Both the position numbers and the translations under genes were made by a program. Under the pieces are notes generated by a model, which saw only the letters and a program-made list of their open reading frames with translations, did not search any database and had not been told where the DNA came from. A DNA stretch of 64,000 bases from Anagrus nilaparvatae (lineage: Eukaryota; Arthropoda; Insecta; Hymenoptera; Mymaridae), in NCBI GenBank assembly GCA_022575985.1, contig JAKSXM010000263.1, positions 12,504,001 to 12,568,000 on the forward strand, read 5' to 3'. Positions 2,808 through 43,284 of the stretch are shown one piece after another. Within the stretch, counting starts at the first letter, position 1. Every line of letters starts with the position of its first letter.

Positions 2808-2849
2808 AATAAATAAAACAAAAATTATATATTTTAAAAAAAAATGTTT

Positions 2850-7522: not shown

Positions 7523-8125
7523 TGTAACGGTTAAGGGTTTTCGTACCGATTACAAACTGATTTTACTGTATGTTTATACTGGATTCTAATGTTTACTATA
7601 TTTTTATGTTGGATTCAACTAATGGCAGTTATTCCCGTTAGGAATAAGGCAAACTGTACTAAAGGACAAATGAATAGGGTTGGAAAGTACTAAATGAAAC
7701 TTATACCTTTATTTAAAACTGAGAGTTTATTATAACTAATTACTTAAATGGTTTACACGTAAATTACAATAAATTATTACAAGTCAACAATTAAATAGAC
7801 AAGTAGCTTAAATAGAGTTTAGGATAGCTATTTGCGACTGTTCGTTAGCTCGACCGGAGATCGAATGCTGTTAATACAATTTTGGCAGTATTTATATGAT
7901 TCCTGATGAGCTGGTTGCTAGTGGGGCATCAAGGATCTCCAAACAGGACCCGTTTCACTTTTTGTGGTTGACCTCATTATTACGTGGCCTGATGCTCCAG
8001 CTTACTTTCGTTTTTAAGTATTAACGGCGATTTTAATATCTGTGTTTTTCTTCTTGATCGACGCAAGATGACTCTTGGTCGGTGATTTATGGTAAAGCTG
8101 GCTTTATGCTTTGCCAGCTGTTACA
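7523..8125 (-). repeat. 3' LTR of the giant retroelement
   Basis: This 603-bp terminal repeat reads TGTAACAGCTGGC to CCGTTACA in element orientation. Reading it against the copy at 24883-25485, I found no difference. It is directly preceded (element sense) by a purine tract and followed by the host duplication GTAT. Confidence 0.97.
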
Positions 8126-8136
8126 CCCCTCTTCTT
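8126..8136 (-). other. Polypurine tract (plus-strand primer)
   Basis: In element orientation the sequence AAGAAGAGGGG lies immediately against the 3' LTR start TGTAACAG. This is the expected position and composition of the RNase H-resistant primer for plus-strand DNA synthesis. Confidence 0.85.
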
Positions 8137-9486
8137 ACAAAAAAAAACTTTTCATAAAGTTTTTTATAGGGTGGCTTTTTTCTAGACTTAATTACTTGCT
8201 AATTTAATTGCTTGACCTGTTTTATGAACTAATTGCTTATTTATTTTAAGTTTTGACAATTTCTCTCGTTTGATTTGTTTTTTGTAATCTCAAAAAATTT
8301 TGGCTCTATATAATACAAAGTATGCTGATTTATGGCTCTATATAATGTACAAGATTGCTGACTTGATACAATAATAAATGATTCTATTTTTATGTTTCTA
8401 TATAATTTTAGTATTTTTGCAAAGTATAATTGTATTTAATTAATTACTATAATTTTTTAAATAATGTTTTTAGCCTTGAATTTCTTAGCTGAGATCTGAA
8501 AAAAATTTAATTAGTGTGGGAGGAGATGTAAAATTGCTAATTTAATTTGATTTTATTTTTTTAGTAAAATATGTCTATTTTACATCCCCTTATCCCTTCT
8601 GCGCTACTGAAAAAAAATACTGAAAGTATTTTTTTCATAAAAATTGTCAAATTTTTGTGTGTTTAAAAATATAAAGTTACCATCACCTTAAAAAATTTTG
8701 AATAACATTAGAAATTTATTAATCCGGTTTTTTGAATGATTGAGATGTTTCGACAGGTATTTGACAGTGTCTTACTAATCCTTCTTAATTGTACATCTCA
8801 ATTAATCAAACAAAAAAGTTTTTGTGTTTTACCGGTATTTGTATATTTAAAAGAAAAAATGTGTACTGAAGTAAGTATAATATTATATATAAAAAAAATA
8901 AAAATAATGTTAAGTCATTAATCATGATCATATTTATCTAATAATTAATTTATTATTGACTTATATCAATCATGCAAGGTAAGCTTATAGTGCATACACA
9001 AAAAGAAGCGAGAAAGACCCGTTATTTTACATATTTGTAACTTGTATACGAGCCGAGTGTTCTCGTAAACTTTCGTGAGCGTTCGGAAGTGTCGAGTTTT
9101 TCGTTAAAAAAAATGTGTGTAATATATATGTAAACGTATATATATATCAATGTATATTATTGCCGTATCACTTCTTTTTGGTTAATTATTATGATTATTA
9201 TTAAATTTATTACTGGTATTAATTATTATTATTAATATATCGTTACTATTATCATTATTATTTACATATTATTATTATATTTTTTTTTGTGTGTGTATTT
9301 CTTATATGGAAAAAAAAATTCAATAATAATAATAATAGTAAAAAAAAATTTATTGAGGTAGTTATTTATCTTAATTGCTATGTTAACGTTAATGACCCGT
9401 AATTTGTTATGACACGTATAATTTTTATTCAATTAAGTAAGAGAAAGTGTGTATATATTTTGCTAGATACAAAAAAAAAATTTTAA
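8137..9486. other. Non-coding 3' segment of the giant retroelement
   Basis: About 1.35 kb of AT-rich sequence with no persuasive ORF on either strand. It includes low-complexity ATT-rich stretches (about 9180-9330). Possible splice donors such as CAAG|GTAAGC at about 8978 suggest that 5' untranslated exons of the plus-strand JmjC-like gene could lie here, but I cannot assign one. Confidence 0.5.
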
Positions 9487-9592
9487 TTTACGCGGAGTAC
9501 TTCGCTAAAATGACGTAGTGATTTTTGTTTCTCTCTTTTACCCATGTAAAAAAAATTTTCTTTTTTTGTTTTGAACTGAATGGATGACAAGA

Positions 9593-9623
<31 letters not shown>

Positions 9624-9770
9624 TTTCTTTATCTCTCTCTCACTTAAAAGATTATTTGATTTAGGCGGAGTACTTCGCTAAAATGACGTAGTGATTTTTG
9701 TTTCTCTCTTTTACTTTAAAAAAAAAAATCTTTGATTTACGCGGAGTACTCCGCGAAACTGACGTCACGA
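9487..9770 (+). promoter_or_regulatory. Three-copy palindrome + CRE-like repeat, candidate antisense promoter
   Basis: A composite motif occurs three times: GCGGAGTACTTCGC then AATGACGTAG (9492-9518), the same again (9664-9691), and GCGGAGTACTCCGC then CTGACGTCA (9741-9767). The first part is a near-perfect palindrome; the second is a CRE/ATF-type site, perfect (TGACGTCA) in the last copy. The block lies about 160 bp upstream of the first recognisable exon of the plus-strand JmjC-like gene. The promoter or enhancer role is inferred from position and motif. Confidence 0.5.
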
Positions 9771-9931
9771 AAAAAAAATTTTTTTTTTTTACAAAGGTAA
9801 TAAGGGTTTTTATTTTTTTTTTGTAAAAAAAAAATCTTATTTCCTTATACGTACTTCCGGTTTGGTTATTTTCGGAGAAAAAAAAAATTTGATGATTGCT
9901 TTGATATACCCAAAAAAAATTATTCTTTTAG

Positions 9932-11372
9932 GCAGAAAATGTTTTATTTGGCCGTTCTACTTTATGTGTGGTTAAGGATAGGCTGAGTTTGGACGATCTT
10001 GGCTTATTTTTGAAGCGTAATTCTGTGGGATTGCAGTGGAATTCTGCAATGCTGGTAAAAAAAATTTTCTTAGATTTATTTCTTTTCCTTTTGTTGTATT
10101 TATTTTCTTCACAATTGGTTTAGTTTCCAGGTATTTTGCCGGTTGACGGAGGTGTAGATGTAGGTCTATATTTGGACCAGATTCCTGCAGAATCAATTTT
10201 CCGGGAGATGGTACGTGTTGGGCGTATTGGCCGTTTCGAAAGACTGCTTTTATCTCCGGATAGTGTTTCGGTATTCAAGGAGTCTATGGTATCAAGAAAT
10301 TCTTATGTCCCGTATTCTGGTGTTATTGGTCCTCAGTATCTGACGGAGTTGGCTACTGATGCGCTAGATAAGAGGGCCAAAAGTGGCGAACCTTGGTTGA
10401 TGGCCCGAGATTTGGAGCTGCCTTTTGGTGGAAGTGCCTTTGGATTTCGGACGGAGCATTATGTGACTGACGTTTTGCATAGCCATCTTTCATCTGCTCC
10501 GGGTAAAATAAAAAAAATTTTGTGTTATGATTATTCCTTATTTTACTGTAATTATATTTTTAGGTTATAATTCGTCCATGTGGTACGTTGGTGAGAGGGG
10601 CTCGAGCACAGGCATGCTTATGAGTAGAGGAGCCATGCCTTTGATTAATCTAAGTAGATATGGTGGCCCTACTGCTTGGAGGGTCATCTTAAGCACTAGC
10701 GTGCCTCGCTATTGCCAACTGATTGGTTCGATGCGAATGAAGACTAATCTATGTACTCAGGCTTCTTGTAGAGATGGAGCTCCTTGTGCTATCTGTTCAT
10801 GTGATATGGCGGCTCTGCATAGTCCTGGGCTGTTTCCTGACTCTTTATTTTTGAAAAAGAATAGAATTGCCTACTATGACTTTTTGCAACAGCCCGGAGA
10901 TTTAATATATATTAGTCCGTGGACTCCGTATTTTTCCGTTAACTTGCAAGGGAATATTTCGGAGTCTACCAACATTTTGCCGCGATTGTTGACTGCGGTA
11001 AAAACGCCTTATGTGTCTTGTAAATGTCCTGTAAGCCTTGGTGGTTTGAGGGAACTAGCGGTGAGGCGATCTCTCGTACTGGTTGACGAGATTCATGAGC
11101 TGACCTGTCCAGAGAAATATTGTGGTAAACAGTTTCGTGGTCCAGCAGCTCTTGATGTACACAAGTTGGCTGCTCACGCTTATCGTTGCGAGCTTTGTGA
11201 CCATAGTTTTTCTAGAAAATTTAATTTGACAAAACATATGGCTACTCATGACCAGACTTTGAGAAATCAGCACGTTTGTGAATGTGGAACTAGGGTGGTA
11301 GCTGGAGGATTGGTTAGGCATCGTGCGACAAAGAGTCACCGGAAGAAATTGTTGATGTTAGGTGTCTTATGA
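9932..11372 (+). CDS. Antisense gene: JmjC-like domain lacking iron ligands plus C2H2 zinc fingers
   Basis: I see exons at 9932-10054, 10124-10502 and 10564-11372, joined by short introns with GT-AG ends and intact frame (at least 436 residues). The start is uncertain: an in-frame ATG lies at 10049, but the exon opens with a splice acceptor, so upstream exons are likely. The middle resembles a JmjC domain of the KDM4/JARID2 type: NSSMWYVGERGSS, SRYGGPTAW, LHSPGLFPDSLFLKKN, then FLQQPGDLIYISPWTPYFSV and NISESTNI. The HxD/E...H iron triad is absent (GMLMS and PYFSV at those places), so demethylase activity is not expected. The C-terminus has zinc-finger motifs CPEKYCGKQF, YRCELCDHSFSRKFN and VCECGTRVVAG with His pairs. 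A polyA signal AATAAA lies at 11394. It is nuclear and DNA/chromatin-binding by inference. Confidence 0.6.
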
Positions 11373-11490
11373 TTGTTATTTTGTATTTATTAGAATAAAA
11401 GATTTTTATTGTTTTTTAAAAAAAAATAATTTGTTTTGTTACCTTTTTTTTTTTTGTTTTCTCTTAGTACTCTTGTATATCAATCTTTTT

Positions 11491-11820
11491 TTACTCGTCC
11501 TCGTCCTCTGTACTGATATCACTATCACTACTGTAGCCTAATATATCTCCTGATGAATACCCGTCATCTGGAATGTGTAATCCGTACACGTGTATGGACT
11601 CCCAAGCCCACTTCCATAGCAATCTTGATATAGGCCCGCTGAGTTCACTATTCATTTTCCTTATTATTACCAGTTCATCTCTTACATCCGATTTTCTGAG
11701 ATCATATGTTGTTAACGGCAGTTTCTCAATTTTTTTTAATGTTAACAAAAATCTAAATTTGTTATGTAAATTTTTTCTTAAAGATTTCTGATATAATCTT
11801 AGCTTGTTCAAGGCACTCAT
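11491..11820 (-). CDS. Orphan accessory ORF (109 aa, basic N-terminus, acidic tail)
   Basis: The ATG at 11820 is chosen because the longer reading frame begins only with GTG. The protein has a Lys/Arg-rich N-terminal third (NKLRLYQKSLRKNLHNKFRF), a Trp-containing middle (LLWKWAWESIHVYGL) and a Ser/Asp/Glu-rich tail (DSDISTEDEDE) that looks like a casein-kinase-type acidic region. No family is recognised. It is in the sense orientation of the element, after the env genes, so it would need a spliced subgenomic mRNA. A possible acceptor TTTTTGCCAG lies about 30 nt upstream. It is tail-to-tail with the JmjC-like gene, about 90 bp from the latter's polyA signal. Confidence 0.6.
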   Translation of the reverse strand: MSALNKLRLYQKSLRKNLHNKFRFLLTLKKIEKLPLTTYDLRKSDVRDELVIIRKMNSELSGPISRLLWKWAWESIHVYGLHIPDDGYSSGDILGYSSDSDISTEDEDE

Positions 11821-12097
11821 GTTGACGATCACTGTTCTTAAATTGTACTGGCAAAAATAAATAACTTTATTGCGTTTCTAGTTTTTTATTTTCGAATATA
11901 TATATTTTTTTTTGTATTTAATGATTTTTTTATTCTTCTACGAAATCTTAATTTGAATAAAAAAAAATTCTTTATTTTATGAGTTTGTTGCCCCGAACTT
12001 TGGATTTTAATATTGGTCCTTTCTGATTGATTCCTTTAGTACCAATTTATACCTTGTGTGAGTAGCTTCGATAATTAAACTGATATAATTTAAAAAT

Positions 12098-12520
12098 ATG
12101 CGAGTTATGGATCTTTGCAACCACAAAGGCCGTTATGTGGCCGTGCTGAATGATGGAGATGCCTTTGAAGTGGAGTATCTGGTATGATTAAAACTGTTGT
12201 TCAAAATAAATGGTTGATTTTTGCTAAAAGATCTTTCTCTTTTTGTATTTTTGTAGTGGGACTATTGTTGTATTTTGTCTAAGTTTTCCAAAAAGACTCC
12301 TTTACAGCATGTATTGCAACGGATCCCTTATCGAGGAGATCAAGACGAATGGTGGTATAATTTGGTAAGTTGTTTCCTGTGTGTGTTTACTCCTTATAAT
12401 AGCAAAAAAAAATGTTTTATTTATATATTGTTTTAGTTTGATACTTATAACCGCATCTGGTTGTATGAAGAAGGTCAGCTTTCGGATTCACAAGGTGTTT
12501 TTGACCTCTTTTTTGACTAA
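12098..12520 (+). CDS. Antisense three-exon microgene A (91 aa, Trp/Asp-rich)
   Basis: Exons 12098-12181, 12257-12364 and 12437-12520 are joined by introns with canonical GTATGA...TTGTAG and GTAAGT...TTTTAG ends. All exon lengths are multiples of three (84, 108 and 84 nt), giving 91 residues with a good ATG and TAA. Exon 2 starts at a Trp (WDYCCILSKF) and ends QDEWWYNL. The gene is paralogous to the microgene at 17233-17644: the same three exons, phase-0 introns and a 108-nt exon 2, with conserved W, P, VL and D-EWW positions. No known family is recognised. It lies between two sense ORFs on the opposite strand. Confidence 0.75.
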
Positions 12521-12634
12521 TCTATGTAATTTTATTTATTTGTACGAATAATCTAATATATTTCTTATTTATTTTAAACTTGATTGATTATACTTAATTT
12601 TATTACCCGTATACCGAAATTATTTTATCCTTAT

Positions 12635-13363
12635 TTACTTAACTACTACTTCTTGTATGGTTACATATCCTCTCTTAAAGACTTCTTTTTTGTTTATTCT
12701 TAACTTTTTCGTGCATTTTGAACAGTGTGATATTTCCAAAAAATTTACCACTTTCCTTTTACAATTGAGGCATTTGCTGACTCTTTTCCTAAAAACTAAT
12801 GCATGTGAACATCCTACTAGATTCCAACTTACTATGTTCCAGTTTAAATTCGAATAACAGTCTTGGCAGAGTAGCTTTAATCTTTCTGAATTATGTGACA
12901 GCTTGGCTTTAGCAATAAATACTGTTTCTTTAGATGTTTTCATGCAATAGTAGTGAGTATCAATTTTGGTTAATGATTTAGTTATATTCTCAGCATATCT
13001 GTCCAGAAGTTCTAAGGTGTCATAGTTTATATCATATAACCAGCGGGGTGGGTTGGCAAATTTTAACTGATTGTCGATTTCCTCTACCGCTTCAGTGATT
13101 GCTTTAAAAATCTTTCTACGATGTTTGCTTAAGGCTAGTATTTGAGTGAAAATTATGGTGGGGTTGGTAGGCGTATTAACTTCTTGTGTTTTTACTATTT
13201 CGCATATTCCCTCAAGTATATGCCTTTTCGAGATCTTACTGGTTATGATTTTCATTAACTTCTCGGTCTTAAAAGGGCAGTGACCTTCTGGTTCTGAAAT
13301 TGCCCTAATAAGTGATGGGATAGCCTCCTTGACTAGATCTACGTTGAGAATTGAGCTTGCCAT
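12635..13363 (-). CDS. Orphan accessory ORF (242 aa) with cysteine-rich C-terminus
   Basis: An intact ORF with an ATG at 13363. The N-terminal 150 residues look helical and mostly charged. The C-terminal third holds paired cysteines: LCQDCYSNLNWN, GCSHALVF, SKCLNCKRK and SHCSKCTKK, suggesting one or two structural zinc sites. It ends in a Lys-rich segment. There is no signal peptide or membrane span, so it is probably intracellular. It follows the F-like env on the sense strand of the element. I do not recognise the family; a regulatory or nucleic-acid-binding role would be a guess from the zinc-like cysteines. Confidence 0.65.
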   Translation of the reverse strand: MASSILNVDLVKEAIPSLIRAISEPEGHCPFKTEKLMKIITSKISKRHILEGICEIVKTQEVNTPTNPTIIFTQILALSKHRRKIFKAITEAVEEIDNQLKFANPPRWLYDINYDTLELLDRYAENITKSLTKIDTHYYCMKTSKETVFIAKAKLSHNSERLKLLCQDCYSNLNWNIVSWNLVGCSHALVFRKRVSKCLNCKRKVVNFLEISHCSKCTKKLRINKKEVFKRGYVTIQEVVVK

Positions 13364-13512
13364 GTTAAAAATTTATTTTTATTTCTTGATCAAGCTGTAT
13401 GTCTGCCTATGAATAAAAAGAAAAGAGAGCGAAGACTGATAAATTTGTTTTTTTTTTTTTTTTTGATATTATTGTAAAAAGGTAAGAGTGATAGTAAGAA
13501 GAGGTATTGTTC

Positions 13513-14899
13513 CTAATTTTTAAATTCTACTGCACTTACGTAACTCTCGCTAATGAGATTTGGGTCGTTAATTCTTCTATACCTTCTTTTTGAGTATAAG
13601 TAACGTGCTAGACAGCCTACGATATTTAATGTGACAATGACTAGCATCACTCCGAGCCACAGATTATCATTCTGAGGATCTTTTTCGTTTTCTATGATTG
13701 GCTCCGTGATAGTTTCGGGAGTTGCTAAAAATTCTGATATATCTCCAGATTCTAGATTGCCATGGGGCGTGACTAAGCGTGGCATAGTGTTGTCTGTCCC
13801 CTTATAAATTTCGGATCCTATTATGATTTCACAAGAGGAGGGGAGTTTCACTACTCCGTAACCTTTCAAATATTTGATTTGATTGAAATTAACGCACTTG
13901 ATTTTTGTTTTTGCTTCGTCTATAAATGAATAGACGATCCCTGACCTAGTTCTTTCAATAACCGGTCCGGTAGCAATTTGTGTTTCGGTGGGGCACCTTA
14001 ATGTATTTAATTTTAATAATTCTTCTTCACAGCTTATCTTTGTGCTAATTATAGGTGCTCTTTTTAAATATAAATCTTCGCTATTGCAGTCTATCGAGTG
14101 TTGCATTTCGGATTCGGATAAAAAAAATGACCGGCCCCCTTCTTGAGTGATGGCTAGAAAATCGTTTTTATAGGCTACTCTTATAGCTAATGTTTGTTGT
14201 CCTATTTCTAGAAAGTTTGGCATACGGTGTAGTCTATATGCGGTGAATTCTTCATTCTGTACTGTTGGAACTTTGAGGATGAAAGCTAGGGTGTTATTGC
14301 TTAGTTTCTTTACTTCCATGTCTATCCTAAATTTGCATTTTTCTATGGGCAATATTTCTTCCTTAAAAAATCGGTCAAGTCTATTGCGTATTCCTATAAT
14401 CTAGAGGCTGTTCGAATTTTCTTGTGATTTCCATTATTTCTGTGATTTTTTCTAAAATTTCAGTTAATGCTTCTGTATCTGATTTGCTGACATTGGTATA
14501 TGAGTATGTTTCAGCCCAGATATTTTTGAGCTGTAATTCGTATTTATTTAAGAAATATATTGCTCTTGGGTCGTTTGTAAATTGTATTTCTGTTTCGTTG
14601 CTCAATGCTTCAAATTTACTGTTTTCTTGAATTTCTACGTCTCGCATAAGAGAGCGGAATTTGTTGCCGACATAAATGAGTCTTGAGGCATTGGTTGATT
14701 TTTTTATATGTAACTGGACTAGATCATTTTGTATGTTTAAATCAAATAGTGTGAATATTTGTATAGGTTGGTTAAGAATCTTGATTTTAGCTTCCTCTTC
14801 GTAAAATATTCCGGCGTTATTTTGTAAATCGAAGATTTTGGGTCGGTTTGATGCTAGTGCTTGTCCTAAGCATAACGTAATCCAAATTGTGAGAATCAT
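13513..14899 (-). pseudogene. env: Baculovirus-F-like (errantiviral) Env, split by a frameshift
   Basis: Two minus-strand ORFs (14899-14381 and from about 14400 to 13513) in different frames overlap by a few codons, and together resemble the F-like Env of insect errantiviruses. The first begins with a signal peptide (MILTIWITLCLGQALAS) and the family-like LQNNAGIFYE. The second holds spaced cysteines (KISCEEELL, TLRCPTE, IKCVNF, PSSCEIII), then a transmembrane segment (WLGVMLVIVTLNIVGCLA) and a short basic tail. The second ORF has no ATG at its head, which supports one broken gene over two genes. Such proteins are class I-type fusogens in the envelope. As written the sequence cannot make one continuous Env unless the shift is programmed or a sequencing error. 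Confidence 0.7.
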
Positions 14900-14998
14900 C
14901 TTGAATTTTAATTATATACATTTTTTATTAGGAACAATAATATTATATATTTATAAAGAATAGAGACAGAAAGAGATATTTATAGTAAAGTAAAAAAG

Positions 14999-15002
<4 letters not shown>

Positions 15003-15034
<32 letters not shown>
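15003..15034 (-). repeat. A(32) tract just downstream of the glycoprotein stop
   Basis: In element sense, a run of 32 A residues begins 9 nt after the glycoprotein stop codon. A second A-run of about 18 (13448-13465) lies about 50 nt after the F-like Env stop. These may be simple homopolymers, or relics of poly(A) tails from mRNAs captured into the element. Confidence 0.8.
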
Positions 15035-15035
<1 letters not shown>

Positions 15036-15043
15036 TTAATGAA

Positions 15044-17032
15044 TTATTCATTAATGATATTTTCGGGTTGTCTTCTGCCTAGTAGTGGATATAGCGTATG
15101 TGTGGCGTCTATTTCTATGTGTGGTTCCACTACTGGTTCGGGAGCGGTGGGGATTGTGACTGGATTTTCAGTGGGTGGATTCTCTGTTTGACGATTTAGC
15201 TCCGTTCCTATGTGTAATAATAATTGCGTTAATGAATCCCAAACCGCGCCGATTATATGAATCGAGAATCCATAAACGCTATAAAGTGCTACAGCATGTA
15301 AACTAGTATCTATAAAGAATTTTACTAGCCTGCATATTACGAATATGCCTAATATACCACTAGATAGTGTGCCGAAAGCTACGAAACGGCCCCAAAAATG
15401 CTCCCATGTTGATTTTATTATTTTTTGTAAGGATTCTGAGTTAAATAAATATGATGGGTTGTAATTTTCACCTGTTACGTTCCTTCCTAACATGCCTCTG
15501 GCTATCGTATTTAAAACTGCTGCTCTTTCTAATGGGAACATTACGTAGTCCTTTAGCTTTTTCAATTGTGATGGGGTATATATTCCGGCCTCGGCTAGAT
15601 TTTTTGGATCGACATATTTCCATGAACCTTTGGTTTCTGGGGATAAGATCTGTGGTGCAGGGGCTTCTACGGCTTCAGGCATGAGTTTGAACCATTTTTG
15701 ACCTAAGTAGTACATTGGTGGTACCAGTGCATTGCAAGTGGTTCTTGTTCCGGTAGTTAGTAAGATGTGTGACCGAGGTGTCATAAAATATGGCTTACCG
15801 TCCTTGTAGACAGGCATTTCTTGGTAGCAGGTGTCTACCTTTCGGTAGGTTACTGGTACACCTACACATTTTATGAGGTTTATGGTTTCTCCACTGATTA
15901 AACCCATGTGGCCTCCACGGTTAAGAACTTGCATGCTGAATAAGTCTGGTTGCAATTGCGCTATATTTAGTGCATTTCTAATTACCTTCTTCTCGAGGTT
16001 GCATTTTTGTAAAAGCAAATCGTGATATAAGTTTTGCATTTGTACCTTCAGGTGTTTTTCAACGTAAATGAATTTAGAATTCATATAGGTTAAAAGGTCA
16101 ATATTTTCTGGAGAAGTATCTTCAGGAATTTCCAATAATTCTGGTCTTTCTCCTTCGTAGATGGTAATCCTCGGATGTGATGTCCTATATAGCTGATTAG
16201 AGCATATAGTGGTTGTGCCTTGAACCGTAAAAGCGAATACTATTGATGTCTCTAAGGCAAAAACGGGATTATCTGGTTTTAGCGGGTCTATAATTTTGTC
16301 CACTATGCCGGTATATAACTTTGAGTATTTTTCTCTACAGTTATCTCTTGGTGTAGCGTCCCAGTAGACCTCTCCTCCGTAAAGATCCGTACAAGATTCG
16401 TCTGATAGTTTGCAACGAGTTCCTGTATTTAAGATTACTTGATCGTTGTTAAGATATACTGTGGCATAATAATCCTCTAAAGTTATTTTTACATAACCAT
16501 CGACTATTACTTCGGTCCAAGCTCCATACGGGTCTATGTAAGGAGCATTCGTGCATTTAGTGCCCTTTTCGCCTTTGTGTCCTGCTAGTTGTACTGGTGT
16601 AGTAATAGATCCATTAGCTCTTAGCCCAGGGATAGTTATTGAATTCCTAAATGCTAAGGTCCTAGTGCGATGCATTTGGTCACATATCATTCTTGTTGTG
16701 GGTTCAATATACGATACTTTTCCCATTTCGATATCTTTAGGAATACTTGATCGATACCATGACTCATCACAATAAGATATTTGTCTGGTAACTTCTATTT
16801 TGCATAAATATGTTTTTACTTTTGAATAATCATTTAATTGTACAAGTGCTATCTTTGCTTTTTCTATTATTACATTTGGTTTATCTGGGATACGACATTC
16901 TCCCACATCTATAAGTGAAAAGGTAGTTACGTTTGTATATTGTTGTCCGCAATCGTAGGCTATTATAGATTGTGCAATGATTATTTTTAAATACGTAGCC
17001 AGGCATAGAATTGCGATACATATTAACTGCAT
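15044..17032 (-). CDS. Chuvirus/mononegavirus-type glycoprotein (second envelope gene)
   Basis: An intact 662-residue type I membrane glycoprotein. It has an N-terminal signal peptide (residues 1-20), then the family-like start YDCGQQYTNVTTFSLIDVGEC and many paired cysteines, for example VKTYLCKIEV, ISYCDESWY and GTRCKLSDESC. NGS and NVT sequons can be N-glycosylated. A hydrophobic region at about 570-630 (FGTLSSGILGIFVICRL and following) is the membrane anchor, followed by a Pro-rich cytoplasmic tail. Length and pattern fit glycoproteins of chuviruses (Jingchuvirales), which are known to have been captured by arthropod retroelements. In the element it would mediate entry, unlike the F-like Env beside it. 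A pyrimidine-rich acceptor (TCTATTTTTTTTAG) lies 9 nt before the ATG, consistent with a spliced env mRNA. The assignment is from pattern memory, not a search. Confidence 0.7.
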   Translation of the reverse strand: MQLICIAILCLATYLKIIIAQSIIAYDCGQQYTNVTTFSLIDVGECRIPDKPNVIIEKAKIALVQLNDYSKVKTYLCKIEVTRQISYCDESWYRSSIPKDIEMGKVSYIEPTTRMICDQMHRTRTLAFRNSITIPGLRANGSITTPVQLAGHKGEKGTKCTNAPYIDPYGAWTEVIVDGYVKITLEDYYATVYLNNDQVILNTGTRCKLSDESCTDLYGGEVYWDATPRDNCREKYSKLYTGIVDKIIDPLKPDNPVFALETSIVFAFTVQGTTTICSNQLYRTSHPRITIYEGERPELLEIPEDTSPENIDLLTYMNSKFIYVEKHLKVQMQNLYHDLLLQKCNLEKKVIRNALNIAQLQPDLFSMQVLNRGGHMGLISGETINLIKCVGVPVTYRKVDTCYQEMPVYKDGKPYFMTPRSHILLTTGTRTTCNALVPPMYYLGQKWFKLMPEAVEAPAPQILSPETKGSWKYVDPKNLAEAGIYTPSQLKKLKDYVMFPLERAAVLNTIARGMLGRNVTGENYNPSYLFNSESLQKIIKSTWEHFWGRFVAFGTLSSGILGIFVICRLVKFFIDTSLHAVALYSVYGFSIHIIGAVWDSLTQLLLHIGTELNRQTENPPTENPVTIPTAPEPVVEPHIEIDATHTLYPLLGRRQPENIINE

Positions 17033-17232
17033 TATTATAAGCTAAAAAAAATAGAGTTTTAATTAAATATTTTTAATAAAAAATAAAAAACGTGATTTTA
17101 AAGAAATGTAAAAACTAGAATCTGTCTTTTGCCCCTTCCATTTTTGTATGGTGAAAGTGGCTGAAGAAAAAAAAATTTCAAATTCTCTACAGTCTGTCTT
17201 TAACTATCGTAAAGGTGAAAGAGAAAAAAAAA

Positions 17233-17644
17233 ATGAATCGCGAAGTTTATATGAATAACCATGCTGGACGAAATATTACAAGAATCGTGGATAAAACTAC
17301 TATGAATCGTTTGGTAAGTTCTAAAGAGACGAATATTGTTGCTTGTTTATTTTTTTCTCTTTTTGACTAAAAAAACAATGTATTATTATTTATAGTGGAA
17401 CTTTGCACTGATAAGGGCGTTTTATGACGGGGATACACCCTTTGCATGGGTGTTACGGCAATTAGATGGATATCAGGACGATGATGAGTGGTGGTGGCCG
17501 ATCGTAAGTAATTATATCTAATTTATTTTATATAAAAAAAAAACTTGAAAGTTTTAAAGTTTTTATTGTTTTTTCTAGCTATGTAAACGGGAATTACGCT
17601 GGTTAAGGGGTCTTGATCGTTTCGAGGATCATACTTTATTTTAA
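17233..17644 (+). CDS. Antisense three-exon microgene B (84 aa, Trp/Asp-rich)
   Basis: Exons 17233-17313, 17396-17503 and 17579-17644 (81, 108 and 66 nt) have GTAAGT...TATAG and GTAAGT...TTCTAG introns, both in phase 0. The 84-residue product starts MNREVYMNNHAGR. Exon 2 begins WNFALIRAF and ends DDDEWWWPI. It aligns with microgene A (12098-12520): a Trp opens exon 2, then a P-x(2)-VL(R/Q) block and an acidic EWW near the exon end. It occupies the pol-glycoprotein gap on the opposite strand, and its polyA signal (AATAAA at 17644) faces the pol 3' end. The function is unknown; I recognise no family. Confidence 0.75.
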
Positions 17645-17749
17645 ATAAAAATGATAATTGTATGTGTGTAAAAAAAGTTGTGTACTGTTTTTAATAAAAT
17701 TATTTTAAAAAAAATTTTATTCCTGCTTTATTTTTATTTATTAGATTAT

Positions 17750-20700
17750 TTAATCATCTAAAGGAAATTTGGCCAATATGTTTGATTTTCGAGCTCTATT
17801 GGAATGGATTATATCGTAATGATCTGGCCCTGTCTTGATTTTTAGATTCCCATCTGGGTAAGTTTCCGCTACGGCGAAAGGTCCTCTGCTTTGGTCGCTG
17901 AACTTATGTATTTTACCTCCCTCCGTCAAACAAATATTGTCTCCTACTTTAAAATCAACGCAAACCAGTCTTTGGTCGTAATATTGTTTGTTTCTTTCCT
18001 TTGCTTTTATGATGTTTTCTCTTGCTATTCTTTGAATTTCATGTAGTTTAAGAAGGAGATCTTTCAAGTAATCGTCGATGGTTGATTCTGGCTCAGGGTC
18101 ATTGACATTTGATGGAATTCTGGCAACCCTAGCGAAAGTCAGCTCGAACGGAGTTGCTTTAGTTGCCTCGTGATATTGGGTGTTGTAAGAGAATGTTGCG
18201 AGATCAATGAACTCGTCCCAATTATCTCTCTGTTTATTGATGAACATTTTAAGGTGTTCAGTCAAGGTATGATGAAAACGTTCCACGGTGCAGCTTTGGT
18301 GGTGGTAGCTACATGTTTGTACTTGCTTTATTTTAAATACTTTTGCTACCTGTGCAAACAACTTAGACATAAAATTAGATCCCTTGTCACTCAAAACCAC
18401 GGCCGGAGATCCGAAATAACAGATGTATCTCTTAATTAGAGCGTCAGCGACGGTGCTAGCTGTTGAATTTGGTAAGGGTACGGCGACGCTAAACTTGGTC
18501 AAGTTGTCCATTATTGTTAGGATGCAGGTGTTGCCGTTTTTAGTCTCTTTTAATGGACCTACAATGTCCAGGCAAATTTTGTAACCTGCCTGCTTAGGAG
18601 TATCCGTTAAAATCATTGGCTGTTTTGTTTTTACTCTGACCAACTTTTTTAGTTGACAATCCAAGCATTGGTTTATGAAATCTTGGATTTGCTCCTGCAT
18701 TCCTTCCCAAAAATATTTCGTTTTGATTCTGCGTAATACTTTGGTGCGTCCCTTGTGACCTCCTATAAGTGACTCGTGGTAGTATCTTATTATACTTTCC
18801 CTTTCACTTTCTTTGGGTATCGTGATTTCGCCTAAGCATATTATTATCTTTGATTCATTATTGTCTTTAAAACTATTTTTCAATAGCCTTAAGACATCTA
18901 TCCAATCTATATTACATATGACCTTTGATTTGGCCATGCTAAACGATTTTATGTTTTTATCTATTGTAAGTTTACATAATTTTTCGAATAATGTTTTTAA
19001 ATTTTCAGTTGCTTGGGATATGCTTATGGTCGTATCACCCCGTATGGGAAGTATAATGTGTGATTTCGAACCAATTTTCATGAATTTTGGTATGCAGAGT
19101 TCTAATTTTATGTTTTTAGGGAGATAACCAGTGACTTGTAATTCTGTTGAGCCGATATCACATGGTTCTCCTTTTGTTGACGTAAAATATACCCAGTAGT
19201 CTTTTCTCATGTACATCTTTTCTCTTGACGACACAAGGTTGTCGGATTTCAACATATTTCTGTAAGCATTTATCTCTGACGTATTTAATTCTGCGTTGGC
19301 GAAAGGCAAGTTTTTGAAATATACAAGCTCTTCTTCCCCTTCTACCTCTCTGGACGGACCCTGCTCTTCTTGGTAATCAGCGGTTGATGTGTTTGGGACG
19401 TCATGAATGTTTGAGGTCGATGTGCTGGGAACGTCATGAAGAGTAACGGGATTTTCGCTTTCAGGAGTTACGTCTTGAGTATTTACTTTTACTTTTTGCT
19501 TTTTTCTTGGTTTTAAGGCGTCAATGGCCTCTTGGTATTTTTGGCTTTTGCCTCTGTTTCTTGTTTGCATTTTTGTCGGTACCTGAGATTCTGCGATGAT
19601 TTCTTCTGAATTTTTTTCTATTATTTGTGTTTCTGGGATGCTTTCTAAATTTCTTATTGGACAAACTGGTATCATATCGAAGTGCAGAACGTTTCTTGAT
19701 AAAGCGTCTGCATTAACGTTGCTCGCTCCTGGTTTGTATATTACCTCGTAGTCGTAGTCAGCAATTTTCAACCTCCAGCGAGCTACCCTAGAATTAGGAT
19801 CTTTTTTCGATTGCATGAATATAAGCGCTTTATGATCAGTCACTAAAAGAAATTTTCTGCCGTATAAGTAAGGGCGAAAATATTCTACTGCCCAAACGAC
19901 AGCAAGTGCTTCCTGATCAGTGACTGAATATCTTTGTTCTGCATCGTTCAGTACACGACTTGCATAAGCAACAGGTAGATCTTTACCAATTTCACCTTGT
20001 GAAAGTACTGCTCCGATACTTTTTGTACTAGCGTCTGTTGTTAATATAAAATCTCTGGAGAAATCGGGGTATTGAAGTATTGGAGCTTCACATAATTTGT
20101 CTTTTAAGATCTCAAAAGATTCCTGTGCCTTTTCATCCCACACGAATTCTTTGTCTTTTTTCAACAAAGCCGTGAGTGGTTTGGCTATTTTTGCGTACTG
20201 AGGTATATGTCTCCGATAATAACCTGTTAGCCCTAACCATTGTTTAATATTTTTCTCGTTTTTCGGAGTAGGAAAATTTCTTACTGCTTCTAATTTTCTT
20301 GGATTTGGCCTAACTCCGTCTTTAGATATTATGTGTCCTAAATACTCGACCTCTGCTTTTAGAAAAACGCATTTTTCAGGTTGTAGTTTTAAATTGGCTT
20401 CTTTTAACCTTCTCATGACTTCTTTAATTAATTCCAGAAGATGTTCAAGTGTCTTGGCATGAATTAAAAAGTCATCGATGTACGCTATCACATTGGCCAT
20501 GTCCCCAAAAATGCGTTGTATGAGACGCATGAAACTAGCTGGTGCGTTCCGAGAACCAAAGACTAGGCGGGTGTATTCGAATAACCCGTACATAGTGGCA
20601 AATGCAGTTTTGTGCCTGTCTCTTGGGTCCAACTCAATCTGTAAAAATCCTGATGCTAAATCTAAAGTACAGAAGTATTTTGACCCGTTGATAGAGTCTA

Positions 20701-22171
20701 ATAGATCCAAAATGTTAGGGAGAGGATATGCGTCTGGAATTGTGTGTTTATTCAAATTTCTCAGGTCCAAAACTAATCTATGTTTAATTTCGCCTTTAGC
20801 GTTGGGTTTTTTGGGTACTAGGATCACTGGTGAACTGTATGATGAGTGTGACGGCGTTATGATCCCTTGGGCCAATAGCTTATCAATTTGTTCTTTAAGT
20901 TCTTCGGCAAGCAGTGGCGATATTTTATACATACGTGAGGTAAGAGGCACTGTATTTGTCGTTATTATTCTATGCTGAAAGACGTTAGTGCTTGGTAACG
21001 GTTCATCTGGTAACTGAAATCTTTCTTGATTTTCTTCGAGAATCTTTTCCACTATTTTTCTTTCTTCTGTATTTAAGTGGTCTAGATTTGAAAGTTCTTT
21101 TATCTTTTCGATCCTTTCACTCTCGGATATCTCCATGGTAAGAATTTTTATCGGTTTTTTGTTTATAATTTCGGATAGAGTCGCTACGGCTTTAGTAAAT
21201 ATCTCTGTCGTATTTACCTTTTCTCGGAACGGTAATACCGCTAATATTCTGTCCAAGGGTTCGACGAATTCCTTAAGTCCTTGACAGCTGACGAATTTTA
21301 TTATTTCAGAAGTTAAAATTCGTATATCTTCTAAATTTTCGAATTTTTCGGATTTTATGTTTTTTATTAACAAATTTTTCAAAGTTTGACAATCTGCTAG
21401 TTGCTTTTTTTGATCTGGCAACGTTTGTCCGGATTTGCGAAGTTCTTTTATTAACTTGACCTCGTCTTCGGGAGCGCGTGGCTCATTTTGCGGCTTTCTT
21501 GCCCTGAGGAAATAATTTTTATTATTTCTGCGAGTTTTATTTATTTTTTTATTTTTATAATATTTTACGAGTCTATATCGGATTCCCATGGAATATTTAA
21601 TTTTTGTTTTAACGGACTTTTTATTTTTTGCTTTCACGGATTTATGAATTTTTAATTTTACGACTTTATTTTTTTTGATTACTAAATTAACGGATTTTTG
21701 TTTCGGATTTATTTTTTTTATTTTACTGACTGGTTGTTCTCCTTGATGGTTGTTGACCTCGGTTTCTGACGGAGAATTACACGTGTCCTGAGTTTCGTCA
21801 TCTTGTGCTGATATTGAGTAAACTTTCTGGTATCTATGAAACGGTATTTTGTGTCCTGAAACCTCGAATATATTTTCTTCGAAGCATAGTTTTGCTTTAT
21901 TCTCCTTGAAAAACCCATTTCCTAGAATGCCATCTTCTGTTATTGGAAAGTTGTCCTCGACAAGATGGATTTTTGTCTCGTGGCCATAAATTTTTGTTGA
22001 TATGCTACCTAAAGAATATACCGGTTGGTTGGTAATGCCACGTAATCTGACTATTTCATTTTTATTGATTGTTTCATTCTCAGGGATGGCACTTTTTACT
22101 AGCAAATTTGTGTTAGCACCGGTGTCCAAGAGAAATTCGCAATCTTTAATTAATGTATCGGAGGTCAACAT
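17750..22171 (-). CDS. pol: Pol polyprotein: protease, reverse transcriptase, RNase H, integrase (Ty3/gypsy)
   Basis: This is a 1473-residue reading frame counted from the first ATG; the real product is probably a Gag-Pol fusion, because the frame is open upstream into gag. Domains in order are: aspartic protease with LLDTGANTNLL (about 14-24), a basic linker (about 150-240), RT with DLASGFLQIEL and the catalytic YIDDFLIHA (about 560), RNase H starting TTDASTKSIGAVLSQ (about 712), a 300-residue linker with STSTS-type low complexity, and integrase with the HHCC zinc site (YYHESLIGGHKG...CLDCQ, about 1127-1175) and the D, D, E core (DIVGPL, SDKGSNFMS, VERFHHTL). The C-terminus resembles errantivirus integrases. 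No stop interrupts it, so replication enzymes are potentially active. Confidence 0.96.
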   Translation of the reverse strand: MLTSDTLIKDCEFLLDTGANTNLLVKSAIPENETINKNEIVRLRGITNQPVYSLGSISTKIYGHETKIHLVEDNFPITEDGILGNGFFKENKAKLCFEENIFEVSGHKIPFHRYQKVYSISAQDDETQDTCNSPSETEVNNHQGEQPVSKIKKINPKQKSVNLVIKKNKVVKLKIHKSVKAKNKKSVKTKIKYSMGIRYRLVKYYKNKKINKTRRNNKNYFLRARKPQNEPRAPEDEVKLIKELRKSGQTLPDQKKQLADCQTLKNLLIKNIKSEKFENLEDIRILTSEIIKFVSCQGLKEFVEPLDRILAVLPFREKVNTTEIFTKAVATLSEIINKKPIKILTMEISESERIEKIKELSNLDHLNTEERKIVEKILEENQERFQLPDEPLPSTNVFQHRIITTNTVPLTSRMYKISPLLAEELKEQIDKLLAQGIITPSHSSYSSPVILVPKKPNAKGEIKHRLVLDLRNLNKHTIPDAYPLPNILDLLDSINGSKYFCTLDLASGFLQIELDPRDRHKTAFATMYGLFEYTRLVFGSRNAPASFMRLIQRIFGDMANVIAYIDDFLIHAKTLEHLLELIKEVMRRLKEANLKLQPEKCVFLKAEVEYLGHIISKDGVRPNPRKLEAVRNFPTPKNEKNIKQWLGLTGYYRRHIPQYAKIAKPLTALLKKDKEFVWDEKAQESFEILKDKLCEAPILQYPDFSRDFILTTDASTKSIGAVLSQGEIGKDLPVAYASRVLNDAEQRYSVTDQEALAVVWAVEYFRPYLYGRKFLLVTDHKALIFMQSKKDPNSRVARWRLKIADYDYEVIYKPGASNVNADALSRNVLHFDMIPVCPIRNLESIPETQIIEKNSEEIIAESQVPTKMQTRNRGKSQKYQEAIDALKPRKKQKVKVNTQDVTPESENPVTLHDVPSTSTSNIHDVPNTSTADYQEEQGPSREVEGEEELVYFKNLPFANAELNTSEINAYRNMLKSDNLVSSREKMYMRKDYWVYFTSTKGEPCDIGSTELQVTGYLPKNIKLELCIPKFMKIGSKSHIILPIRGDTTISISQATENLKTLFEKLCKLTIDKNIKSFSMAKSKVICNIDWIDVLRLLKNSFKDNNESKIIICLGEITIPKESERESIIRYYHESLIGGHKGRTKVLRRIKTKYFWEGMQEQIQDFINQCLDCQLKKLVRVKTKQPMILTDTPKQAGYKICLDIVGPLKETKNGNTCILTIMDNLTKFSVAVPLPNSTASTVADALIKRYICYFGSPAVVLSDKGSNFMSKLFAQVAKVFKIKQVQTCSYHHQSCTVERFHHTLTEHLKMFINKQRDNWDEFIDLATFSYNTQYHEATKATPFELTFARVARIPSNVNDPEPESTIDDYLKDLLLKLHEIQRIARENIIKAKERNKQYYDQRLVCVDFKVGDNICLTEGGKIHKFSDQSRGPFAVAETYPDGNLKIKTGPDHYDIIHSNRARKSNILAKFPLDD

Positions 22172-22212
22172 AATGGTTGGCGCGTGGCTGTCTTGATTTA
22201 AATTGACTTGAA

Positions 22213-24327
22213 TTAGTTCTGCTGAGCAGCTGCTGCCTCCCGACTCGCGCCTGTTGTCGGTTGGCTGTTGGAGTTTCCCTGGTTTTGTTGAGCCATTCTT
22301 TCATATCTTATCCTTTTTCTGCAGACTGCAATCTTATGCTCTTTTGCATGGCAATAATAACACTCGACGTTTGCTTCTCTGTTAGTATTAGCCGGTGTTG
22401 GGTTGGTATTATTATTAGATTGCACTGCTGGTTTTTTATTCGCTGGGTTAGAAAAACACTTGTCAATTTCATGACCTGGTTTCCCGCAATGATTGCACTT
22501 TAATTTCGATCGGCAGTCCGCGGCTGAATGATACAGTTTATTACATATTTGACACTGCACTGGCTTATTCTTGTCACTGACTTGTTTTACTGACACTTTT
22601 TCGCACTCGGATGCGAGATGTTGGTTTGAGTTGCATATTTGACATCTCTCTTTATTTCCTGCGTTAACAACCTTTACTTCTTTGTCTGACACTTTTACCT
22701 CATCGTATATACAAGTATCTCTTTCTACTCGTATAGCCTCTTTAATATTATCTTCGAGTGAAGCATACGGTATTATTCTGTTACGTATTTCGAATCTCAT
22801 GCCTTTAAGAAAGAATTTAGTCAGATCCCTTTCTATTTCATCGTCGTCAGCGTGTCTACCTTCTATTAATCTTGCCTTTTTGATCTTGCGGCCTACTTCT
22901 TTGATTTTATTAGCAAAAATTATGATGGTTTCTTTTTCTTTTTGCCTGAGTTGTGATAACTCGCCATTTAGCTCGTTTGACGTTTTTGGATGTCCAAAAG
23001 CAAATTCCATAAATTCTGTTAGTTTATTTACGTTTACAAAGGCTTGATCCAATGTGGCCCTACTTGCCTCACCCAATAACCTAGTTTGTATCAATTGAGT
23101 GAGTTCATACTCATTTTCTGGTGGGATCATATTTCGGGCTCGGCTACATCCTATCACGAAGGCTTCAAGTTCTTCTGCCTTCCCACTAAATTTTGGGATC
23201 ATTTCTAACGTGTCTTTTATTGAAAAGGGTCTAATTTTCGCTAAACTAGAATTTTGGCCGTAGATTGACCTTGAGTTGCTAGTGCGACTATCCATAGTTG
23301 GTCTTTGATGCCTGCAACTATTTTGTCCATGAGCGAGGTTACAATATCTGCATGGTTCTTCTATGTTTTCTGATGTGTAATACATTGTAGAGCACGGTGT
23401 TCTTACTGGCATGGTGCTTCTATTTGGCCTGTAATTTGTACTGTGAGCGAAGTTTGTACTTTGCTGATGTGTCAGATGTGTTAAATTTCCTCTTTGAGTA
23501 GCAGTGTCCTGAAAAGTTTGATACTGACTTTCGTTTGTTTGACTTACCCCAAATTTTTCATTATAGAATTCGGTTGCATCTAAATTGAAAGCTATTTTCT
23601 TTGATTTTCGGGGTAGAACTGGGGTCTCGATGTATTGAGAATTTCCTATTCTTATCATTTCGATCTCTACCGATAGCTCTGTGATCAGTAGTTCTGGTTT
23701 TAGGTCGTTATTGTATAACTCTATTAATATTGCACATGCTTCATAGTTTTTTAGTGCTTTTTCTAATAATTCTTGATCTTCATCCCCTACTTCTAATACG
23801 TTGAAAAGTTCTTCTGCTGGTATAGTTAATTTCCCTTCAATTGACTCGTCATTAACTTTAACCGCTAGGTATTTAATGTAGTCGTGAGTGGTTGGGTCTA
23901 TATTATCTTTTGATACTTTACAATGTTTTTTAAATATATTTCTAAAACGTGAATCTAAGTAAATGTTTAAAGGATTTTCTTCTTTTTCTAAATCTAATAT
24001 TATGTTAATTATATCTGATGGGTCAATGGCGTTAGAAATTAACTCTTTTAAAATATTTACAAAGGTTGTGTCTTTGGCTAATTTTTCTACTTTATCTACG
24101 GAGGAAGAACCTTTTAATGTATCAATAAGGGATTGATCCGGTACGTTAGCTAGTTTGCTTGTGTGTTCACTATAGTATTTTTGGTATTTCTTAATTAATT
24201 CTTTAAACCCTATTTCGCTAATATTGCCAAAATCGGCCGGCGCGTGACCTACTAATATGTCGTATGCTTTCTCTGTCATAGCGTCTTTAGTTTCGTATAA
24301 TTCGGCTAGTCTATTTATTACGCTCAT
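22213..24327 (-). CDS. gag: Gag polyprotein with CCHC zinc knuckles
   Basis: The 704-residue structural polyprotein forms the particle core. The ATG at 24327 opens an uninterrupted frame. The N-terminal half is an acidic, helical region of unknown type. A capsid-like retrotransposon Gag domain lies at about 365-500 (PFSIKDTLEMIPKFSGKAEE). Four zinc knuckles follow at about 560-690 (CQICNSNQHLASEC, CQICNKLYHSAADC, CNHCGKPGHEIDKC, CYYCHAKEHKIAVC), which package RNA. An additional Cys/His cluster, CRYCNLAHGQNSC, lies near residue 335. The tail is Asn/Gln- and Ala-rich. At 704 residues it is longer than usual for gypsy Gags (about 300-450). The stop lies inside the pol frame overlap. Confidence 0.92.
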   Translation of the reverse strand: MSVINRLAELYETKDAMTEKAYDILVGHAPADFGNISEIGFKELIKKYQKYYSEHTSKLANVPDQSLIDTLKGSSSVDKVEKLAKDTTFVNILKELISNAIDPSDIINIILDLEKEENPLNIYLDSRFRNIFKKHCKVSKDNIDPTTHDYIKYLAVKVNDESIEGKLTIPAEELFNVLEVGDEDQELLEKALKNYEACAILIELYNNDLKPELLITELSVEIEMIRIGNSQYIETPVLPRKSKKIAFNLDATEFYNEKFGVSQTNESQYQTFQDTATQRGNLTHLTHQQSTNFAHSTNYRPNRSTMPVRTPCSTMYYTSENIEEPCRYCNLAHGQNSCRHQRPTMDSRTSNSRSIYGQNSSLAKIRPFSIKDTLEMIPKFSGKAEELEAFVIGCSRARNMIPPENEYELTQLIQTRLLGEASRATLDQAFVNVNKLTEFMEFAFGHPKTSNELNGELSQLRQKEKETIIIFANKIKEVGRKIKKARLIEGRHADDDEIERDLTKFFLKGMRFEIRNRIIPYASLEDNIKEAIRVERDTCIYDEVKVSDKEVKVVNAGNKERCQICNSNQHLASECEKVSVKQVSDKNKPVQCQICNKLYHSAADCRSKLKCNHCGKPGHEIDKCFSNPANKKPAVQSNNNTNPTPANTNREANVECYYCHAKEHKIAVCRKRIRYERMAQQNQGNSNSQPTTGASREAAAAQQN
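22273..22279 (-). promoter_or_regulatory. -1 programmed frameshift heptamer (gag-pol)
   Basis: In the gag frame the sequence reads G GGA AAC, a canonical X XXY YYZ slippery heptamer of the kind used at simian retrovirus gag-pro junctions. It lies about 60 nt before the gag stop. The -1 frame is open from just upstream of it straight into the protease of pol. Whether a stimulatory pseudoknot follows was not tested. Confidence 0.75.
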
Positions 24328-24882
24328 TTTAAAAAAAGGAATTTTTTTAAAAATGAAAGTATTATGTATATTTTGGTTCTACAGAAGAATTACTGGTTTT
24401 TTGAAGGCGTAAAAAAAATGAAAGTTAAAAAAAAGTTTCTTAGTCTGCCAATACCGTTGTATTTGCTCGGTTTATGGAAACTTGGTGCTTCCCCGTCGAC
24501 TAAGAAATTTTATGTACAGTTATTCTGCGAAAACTTGCGTTTTCAATAACTTTATAACAGAAAAAATAGCGTATAATTAGAACAGTTTCTTGATCTGCAA
24601 GTACCTATGTATTTGCTCGGTTAATAGAAACTTGACGTTTCCCCGTTGATTAAGAAAAGAAAGAAAAAAAAAATTTTTGTCTGCAAATACCTGTGTATTT
24701 GCTCGGTTAACGGAAACTTGATGTTTCCCCGTTGACAAAATTTTCGAGTAAAGTTATTTTGTAAAAACTTTCGTTTTTATAACTTTATAAAAAGAAAAAA
24801 GTAATAGTATAAGTAAGAAATAGTAATAATAAACCTTAAACTTTGTCTCCTTAATACAGTTCGTCCGGATGATGGGCCCCCA
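24328..24882 (-). repeat. 5' leader with three hairpin-forming repeats
   Basis: The untranslated leader between the primer-binding site and gag carries three imperfect copies of a roughly 60-bp unit at 24443-24507, 24594-24657 and 24679-24738. Each shows a GTATTTGCTCGGTTAA core followed by GGAAACTTG...TTTCCCCGTTGA, which can fold as a hairpin. A second motif, AAAACTTGCGTTTT, recurs at 24529 and 24763. Candidate roles are packaging signal, translation control or, by analogy with the gypsy leader, an insulator-like protein-binding array; all are inference. Confidence 0.7.
24865..24882 (-). other. Primer-binding site
   Basis: Directly after the 5' LTR, in element sense, comes TGGGGGCCCATCATCCGG. 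TGG pairs with a tRNA CCA end and the position is exact. I could not assign the tRNA. Confidence 0.7.
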
Positions 24883-25485
24883 TGTAACGGTTAAGGGTTT
24901 TCGTACCGATTACAAACTGATTTTACTGTATGTTTATACTGGATTCTAATGTTTACTATATTTTTATGTTGGATTCAACTAATGGCAGTTATTCCCGTTA
25001 GGAATAAGGCAAACTGTACTAAAGGACAAATGAATAGGGTTGGAAAGTACTAAATGAAACTTATACCTTTATTTAAAACTGAGAGTTTATTATAACTAAT
25101 TACTTAAATGGTTTACACGTAAATTACAATAAATTATTACAAGTCAACAATTAAATAGACAAGTAGCTTAAATAGAGTTTAGGATAGCTATTTGCGACTG
25201 TTCGTTAGCTCGACCGGAGATCGAATGCTGTTAATACAATTTTGGCAGTATTTATATGATTCCTGATGAGCTGGTTGCTAGTGGGGCATCAAGGATCTCC
25301 AAACAGGACCCGTTTCACTTTTTGTGGTTGACCTCATTATTACGTGGCCTGATGCTCCAGCTTACTTTCGTTTTTAAGTATTAACGGCGATTTTAATATC
25401 TGTGTTTTTCTTCTTGATCGACGCAAGATGACTCTTGGTCGGTGATTTATGGTAAAGCTGGCTTTATGCTTTGCCAGCTGTTACA
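24883..25485 (-). repeat. 5' LTR of the giant retroelement
   Basis: This 603-bp LTR appears identical to that at 7523-8125. The right-hand flank begins GTAT, matching the left flank of the element. Confidence 0.97.
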
Positions 25486-42694: not shown

Positions 42695-42718
42695 TTTCAG
42701 CAAATAAAAAAAGTGTTG

Positions 42719-43048: not shown

Positions 43049-43062
43049 TTTACAGTAGTGAA

Positions 43063-43105
<43 letters not shown>

Positions 43106-43140
43106 TTGATAACCGTTTTTATGGCTGCCGTGATGATGAA

Positions 43141-43185
<45 letters not shown>

Positions 43186-43272
43186 GATGATGATGATGAC
43201 CGTGACACAACATCATTCCCTCGCAGGTGCGGTTGTAATATTTATTTAAAATGTTATTGCGGATATTATTAA
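43045..43272 (+). repeat. GAC/GAT microsatellite encoding an acidic poly-Asp stretch
   Basis: Runs of (GAC)n at about 43064-43104 and (GAT)n at about 43132-43198 are open as poly-Asp in one frame, with VDNRFYGCRDDE between and a Cys-rich end (RRCGCNIYLKCYCGYY). The frame follows an acceptor-like TTGATTTACAG, so it could be the acidic tail exon of the RING gene. Equally it may be only a microsatellite. There is no ATG. Confidence 0.5.
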
Positions 43273-43284
43273 TTGTCGTAAACA

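Follow-up and report, generated by a model that had tools for sequence, protein, structure and literature searches.

Retroelements are thought to lose introns at each copying. The spliced antisense hbz/aph RNAs of the human T-cell leukemia viruses (HTLV) start in the 3′ long terminal repeat (LTR), and the regulators that they encode are mostly nuclear (PMC10186651); the antisense open reading frames (ORFs) of the plant element Retand are predicted to bind DNA (PMC11963269). Here, an unusually large LTR element of 17,963 bp is described, located at 7523-25485 of a 64,000-nucleotide stretch of Anagrus nilaparvatae DNA (contig JAKSXM010000263.1, positions 12,504,001 to 12,568,000; hereafter the window). 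The sense strand of its gag and pol genes is the minus strand; three genes modelled with introns (A, B and C) are read from the plus strand. We consider it fairly probable that this is a recently integrated, complex retrovirus-like Ty3/gypsy element, the spliced antisense genes of which serve as accessory regulators.

Like HTLV-1 HBZ and HTLV-2/3/4 APH, the element has an antisense gene near the 3′ LTR, probably accessory and predicted to be spliced from signals in the DNA. HTLV, however, belongs to the Retroviridae and has one antisense gene, with a bZIP domain in HBZ, whereas the Ty3/gypsy element has three, with JmjC and C2H2 domains, two of them lying far from the 3′ LTR (PMC10186651). Retand elements occur in plants and encode a TRP28 domain, no env is recognised in them, and the word "intron" is absent from the text searched (PMC11963269). 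No Pfam match to TRP28 was obtained with the exon 3 and exon 4 stretches of gene A or with the middle exons of genes B and C, exon 2 of A and the first and last exons of B and C not being among the queries. Our best reading, drawn by analogy, is that the element would work like HTLV HBZ and the Retand antisense ORFs while belonging to neither group.

The envelope genes have parallels elsewhere. Anakin is likewise an LTR element with a captured chuvirus-type glycoprotein as env, but it is a BEL/Pao element of mosquitoes and the word "antisense" is absent from the text searched (PMC7642597), whereas the present element is of Ty3/gypsy type. Jingchuvirales glycoprotein insertions near Gypsy fragments were described from Hymenoptera, the glycoprotein type and probably also the host order being the same as here (PMC10084718). 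Dezordi et al. (2023) found no clear evidence for glycoprotein capture by Gypsy, whereas our glycoprotein gene (G) lies within a complete Ty3/gypsy-type element (PMC10084718). Insect endogenous retroviruses and errantiviruses also combine a Ty3/gypsy gag-pol with an F-type env, the F-like env of the present element being weakly supported and frame-split; no element-borne antisense gene appears in the text seen, whereas the present element has a second env type beside the F-like one (PMC12992720). Further comparison was made with the large gypsy-like element Burro of planarians (PMC6431247), with orchid AlkB elements, which are LTR elements with a captured 2-oxoglutarate dioxygenase domain (PMC9289625), and with giant or ORF-rich LTR elements of bdelloid rotifers (PMC5408684). 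For none of these did the text seen contain an antisense intron-bearing gene set.

An earlier note on this DNA had held that no element with such a layout was described. In that form the statement was not borne out, given the spliced antisense genes of HTLV (PMC10186651), the antisense ORFs of Retand (PMC11963269) and the larger gypsy-like elements of planarians (PMC6431247). Accessory genes in antisense, gypsy elements of large size and the capture of a chuvirus-type env have each been described before; their combination would be new. Among the matches listed (titles and abstract starts in the open-licence PMC literature), none describes multiple spliced antisense genes in an LTR element of an animal, and none an LTR element that carries a JmjC gene.

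Structure of the element and gene models on both strands

The two LTRs were identical at every position and have the termini TGTAAC..GTTACA, so that the exact LTRs and GTAT target duplications claimed in the earlier note were borne out (Table 1). LTR identity is a mark of recent insertion, and because these LTRs are identical the insertion is taken to be recent. Together with the ORFs and the intron signals, they also confirmed a single LTR unit with gag, pol and env in sense and three antisense intron-bearing genes. The antisense genes overlap no named sense ORF and occupy three different places: C separates pol from G, B separates ORF X from ORF Y, and A separates Y from the 3′ LTR.

All seven introns modelled on the plus strand run from GT to TAG, with a GC content of 0.13-0.24 compared to 0.33-0.49 in the ten exons. 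Six are short (61-82 nt); intron 1 of gene A measures 1061 nt. Exon phases fit over all seven introns and every join is in frame. An early in-frame stop occurs in three of the six short introns. Two others have an open frame as far as the TAG at their own end, and the sixth is stop-free but shifts the frame by its length. Gene models were picked with the splice sites in view, and these intron statistics are consequently not a blind test. The proposal of three intron-bearing genes opposite gag-pol agrees with splice signals, phases and GC contrast in the DNA; exon 1 of gene A measures 12 nt and was placed by splice signals and phase alone. An alternative first exon at approximately 8974 was rejected, as its phase fails to join (judged by eye).

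The middle exons of genes B and C comprise 36 codons each, are flanked on either side by phase-0 introns, and are identical at 11 of the 36 positions, a score equalled by none of 200,000 shuffles. When compared within the window, the two exon 2 peptides matched at E 1.7e-5, the next best place being 52321-52380 (E 0.036). Similarity was weak for exon 1 (57 of 5000 shuffles equal) and absent for exon 3 (3164 of 5000). On these comparisons B and C are classed as paralogues, and their paralogy is independent evidence for the gene models.

On the sense strand, the corresponding claim of gag-pol, two env genes and two orphan ORFs held for gag, pol, G, X and Y; the second env is frame-split and weakly identified. 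A weak match to Retrotrans_gag (E 0.086) was obtained for gag. The TG..CA LTR ends, the 4-bp target duplication (4-6 bp in Ty3/gypsy elements) and the order protease-reverse transcriptase-RNase H-integrase in pol all agree with Ty3/gypsy, an assignment made by Pfam profiles only. None of the six Pfam matches of pol is known to be peculiar to BEL/Pao, which leans away from a BEL/Pao polymerase. Membership of Troyka, defined by CG..CG termini and a 3-bp target duplication (PMC12440569), was ruled out by the TG..CA termini and 4-bp duplication.

By its profile match, G is a jingchuvirus/mononegavirus-type glycoprotein, that is, of the negative-strand-virus type; its hydropathy peaks lie at the N-terminus and at residue 556. 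The F-like env is tentatively regarded as baculovirus-F-like. Its match to PF12259 (Baculo_F; E 0.018, 14.1 bits) stays below the cut-off of 24.1 and the gene is spread over two frames, which leaves its likeness to the intact F-type envelope of errantiviruses and insect endogenous retroviruses doubtful; a hydropathy peak in its second ORF is a possible membrane span. Neither X nor Y belongs to an accepted Pfam family (nor X to one in NCBIfam; Y was not searched for in protein databases), and neither has a hydropathy peak. Two candidate identities of X were taken as chance matches: hypA in NCBIfam (E 0.002; at 18.2 bits, below the cut-off of 88.1) and a kinase-like protein (three solved-structure matches at E ~0.9). 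To the putative primer binding site no tRNA was assigned.

Table 1. Features of the element (positions in the window; the minus strand is the sense strand of gag-pol).
Feature	Position	Strand	Description
3′ LTR (sense of gag-pol)	7523-8125	-	603 bp; adjoins GTAT target duplication 7519-7522
Putative polypurine tract	8126-8136	-	purine-rich; adjoins 3′ LTR
Gene A	8859-11372	+	4 exons: 8859-8870, 9932-10054, 10124-10502, 10564-11372
Three direct repeats	9473-9808	+	in gene A intron 1; second and third 85% and 63% to first
ORF Y	11491-11820	-	109 aa; orphan, acidic tail
Gene B	12098-12520	+	3 exons: 12098-12181, 12257-12364, 12437-12520; 91 codons + stop
ORF X	12635-13363	-	242 aa; orphan, conserved Cys/His; relatives P0002, P0003
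F-like env	13513-14911	-	ORFs 14381-14911 and 13513-14400 (stop-to-stop limits), overlapping and differing in frame
G-type env	15044-17032	-	662 aa; PF24664 (Monjiviricetes_fusion), 637 bits, residues 7-649
Gene C	17233-17644	+	3 exons: 17233-17313, 17396-17503, 17579-17644; 84 codons + stop
pol	17750-22171	-	single 1473-aa frame; RVP, RVT_1, RNase H, Integrase_H2C2, rve; Ty3/gypsy order
gag	22213-24327	-	704 aa; several CCHC-like knuckles
Three imperfect 77-nt repeats	24431-24743	-	leader between 5′ LTR and gag
Putative primer binding site	24859-24882	-	TGG start; immediately after 5′ LTR
5′ LTR	24883-25485	-	603 bp; adjoins GTAT target duplication 25486-25489

Copies of the element elsewhere in the window were searched for at the DNA level with the LTR, the leader, 8126-9900, gene A, X and the ORF Y/gene B stretch, yielding a single 46-bp match just after gene B. 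At the protein level, exons 3-4 of gene A, X and Y were compared to the rest of the window, with one ORF X match (E 0.30), gag, pol, env and gene C lying outside this in-window comparison.

The element is flanked by an inverted repeat pair (7307-7349 and 25754-25796). Following joining of the flanks, a 28-bp inverted pair with a spacing of approximately 440 bp brackets the rebuilt empty site, which looks like landing of the element within a small inverted-repeat transposon; no further copy of this site was present in the window. At 42329-53567, a viral-type DNA polymerase B, an integrase core, a double jelly-roll, a phospholipase A2-like domain and a RING finger are encoded by a Polinton/Maverick- or adintovirus-like element. 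Within 2217-3558, an ORF has a chromodomain match below the cut-off (21.7 versus 25.1 bits) and, on the opposite strand, an ORF resembles by eye a piece of DNA polymerase B, with no Pfam match; this is perhaps a second Polinton remnant. Two direct repeats of 287 nt (5968-6254 and 6422-6708) are 99% alike, and a tRNA-Ser gene (6394-6468) overlaps the start of the second.

Gene A and relatives in databases

The exon 4 stretch of gene A matched the Pfam families JmjC (34.5 bits, cut-off 24) and zf-C2H2. Proteins with JmjC-type and C2H2 domains are usually nuclear, and the 2-oxoglutarate dioxygenase domain known from the orchid AlkB elements is a relative of the JmjC fold. Among 773 candidates, one relative of the exon 4 stretch was found (P0001, 265 aa, 72%), in which JmjC was called independently. 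The HxD/E...H iron ligands of KDM4-type proteins were not found: exons 2-4 of gene A and P0001 contain no HxD or HxE motif, and the HAGFN stretch of KDM4A, which we take to be the iron-ligand part, aligned to YFSVN of gene A (E ~0.7). Loss of the iron ligands in both gene A and P0001 points to a JmjC fold that is conserved but without catalytic activity, attached to DNA-binding fingers. Epe1 of fission yeast is catalytically unusual. Some JmjC-family proteins, Epe1 being an example, act on heterochromatin (PMC6576747); by analogy, we infer that the gene A protein may be comparable to Epe1.

Each of the three repeats in intron 1 of gene A carries a GCGGAGTACT(T/C)CGC palindrome and a TGACGT motif, which we take to be cyclic AMP response element (CRE)-like. 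TGACGT occurs eight times on the plus strand of the element, three of these occurrences being inside the repeats. These repeats with their CRE-like motifs could be an antisense enhancer. An AATAAA follows gene A at 11394 and is one of 17 on the plus strand of the element.

For X, two relatives (P0002 and P0003, 68% and 61%) were found among 297 candidates. For G there were 14 among 5342, the best at 82% and the other 13 at 26-43%; two of these, P0016 and P0017 (26-27%), were excluded when the G relatives were aligned. Species names are attached to three of the 14, and all three are Hymenoptera (Osmia lignaria, Temnothorax longispinosus and Venturia canescens). The Osmia protein (P0009, 981 aa) starts with a retropepsin-like stretch 33% identical to the element's pol over 98 residues, followed by G. 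If this gene model is sound, G would adjoin Ty3-like coding sequence in a bee too. In viral contigs, none of seven queries (gene A exon 4, X, G, gag, pol and the G and gene A alignments) gave a confirmed relative, and prokaryote genome contigs yielded none with the X alignment.

Alternative explanations

Several points weigh against antisense genes acting as accessory regulators. These genes are modelled from DNA sequence, their promoters and proteins being putative, and the element was read as one complete copy; P0001-P0004 lie on separate contigs of 1.6-4.1 kb, so that any linkage of A, X and G in these relatives is hypothetical. The similarity between B and C is strong in exon 2 only. B, C and Y have no Pfam match, protein-database searches having covered A, X and G only. 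For gene A, the JmjC match amounts to 34.5 bits and the KDM4A match to E ~0.7, and the predicted structure of exon 4 was unusable (mean predicted local distance difference test score, pLDDT, of 28), as was that of X (mean pLDDT 40). Half of the short introns (3/6) contain no in-frame stop ahead of their own acceptor, and 138 of the 1735 plus-strand GT..AG intervals of 55-90 nt are equally AT-rich as the modelled introns. Finally, the frame-split F-like env may mean that part of this copy is no longer functional.

Of the alternatives, a chance composite survives best, although we consider it unlikely. An ordinary env-bearing Ty3/gypsy copy would have been hit by host genes or another transposon, the antisense genes being passengers of this copy, as might be expected from a layout known from a single copy, from the resemblance of gene A to a host-derived chromatin protein, and from the other transposons in the window, the Polinton-like one included. 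One chance nested insertion is disfavoured, however, because the antisense genes are scattered over three sites among the sense genes, without overlapping any named one, and because B and C, 4.7 kb apart, are paralogous while A (72%) and X (68% and 61%) have relatives elsewhere. Divergence of B and C as paralogues fits long joint residence in the element. The earlier note had named insertion boundaries of the cargo's own as a sign of such a nested insertion; in the AT-rich region 8126-12700, where the comparison covered the longest 25 inverted pairs out of 356, no convincing ones were seen, and the scan did not reach the sequence around gene C.

Slightly less probable is a role in transmission instead of regulation: the antisense genes would be real and conserved, but their products would, for example, be accessory factors that are packaged. 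The middle exons of B and C contain no accepted Pfam domain, and X and Y are likewise without one, which leaves room for such a role; against it stand the usually nuclear combination of C2H2 fingers and JmjC-type domain in gene A and the lack of a hydropathy peak in X and Y (a result that does not extend to B and C). The weakest alternative, chance frames with splice-like signals in AT-rich DNA or dead remnants in place of expressed genes, draws on models built from DNA, on the AT-rich intervals and stop-free short introns counted above and on the 12-nt exon 1 of gene A, but is improbable in view of the 265-aa relative of gene A exon 4 with its independent JmjC call, the exon 2 similarity of B and C, and the fit of phases over all seven introns.

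Proposed working and implications

In our reading of the element as a complex retrovirus-like element with accessory antisense regulators, the plus strand would be transcribed after integration, with start points within or next to the 3′ LTR as well as internal ones, and splicing would remove the introns from the antisense transcripts. The sense genomic RNA carries antisense introns as their reverse complement, and these are not spliced out. Genes placed antisense would escape intron loss because their introns are unspliceable on the sense RNA, and would survive retrotransposition with introns intact. The earlier argument that antisense introns stay in the genomic RNA agrees with the locus: the introns are intact and the LTRs enclosing them identical, which is consistent with passage through an RNA that holds the introns wrongly oriented. 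Gene A would then probably encode a DNA-binding protein of the nucleus, with a KDM4-like JmjC fold that is inactive, acting on the chromatin or transcription of the provirus, and might either shield the provirus from silencing or lower sense expression in the manner of HBZ. B and C would be a duplicated pair of small accessory proteins.

More tentatively, and with doubt prevailing, the element may represent a hymenopteran lineage of complex ambisense elements with conserved intron-bearing antisense regulators, among them a pair of paralogues and a DNA-binding pseudo-demethylase by which chromatin silencing of the provirus is either opposed or imposed. The introns would act as a switch, making these genes expressible from integrated DNA and never from packaged RNA.

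The element would supply the capture of a jingchuvirus-type glycoprotein by Gypsy that was sought by Dezordi et al. (2023) (PMC10084718). An animal element with several antisense genes would, if true, be a natural example, open to testing, of the way in which complex retroviruses acquire regulators. A JmjC/zinc-finger protein that is dead and borne by a transposon would, if true, offer a direct handle on the silencing bargain between element and host.
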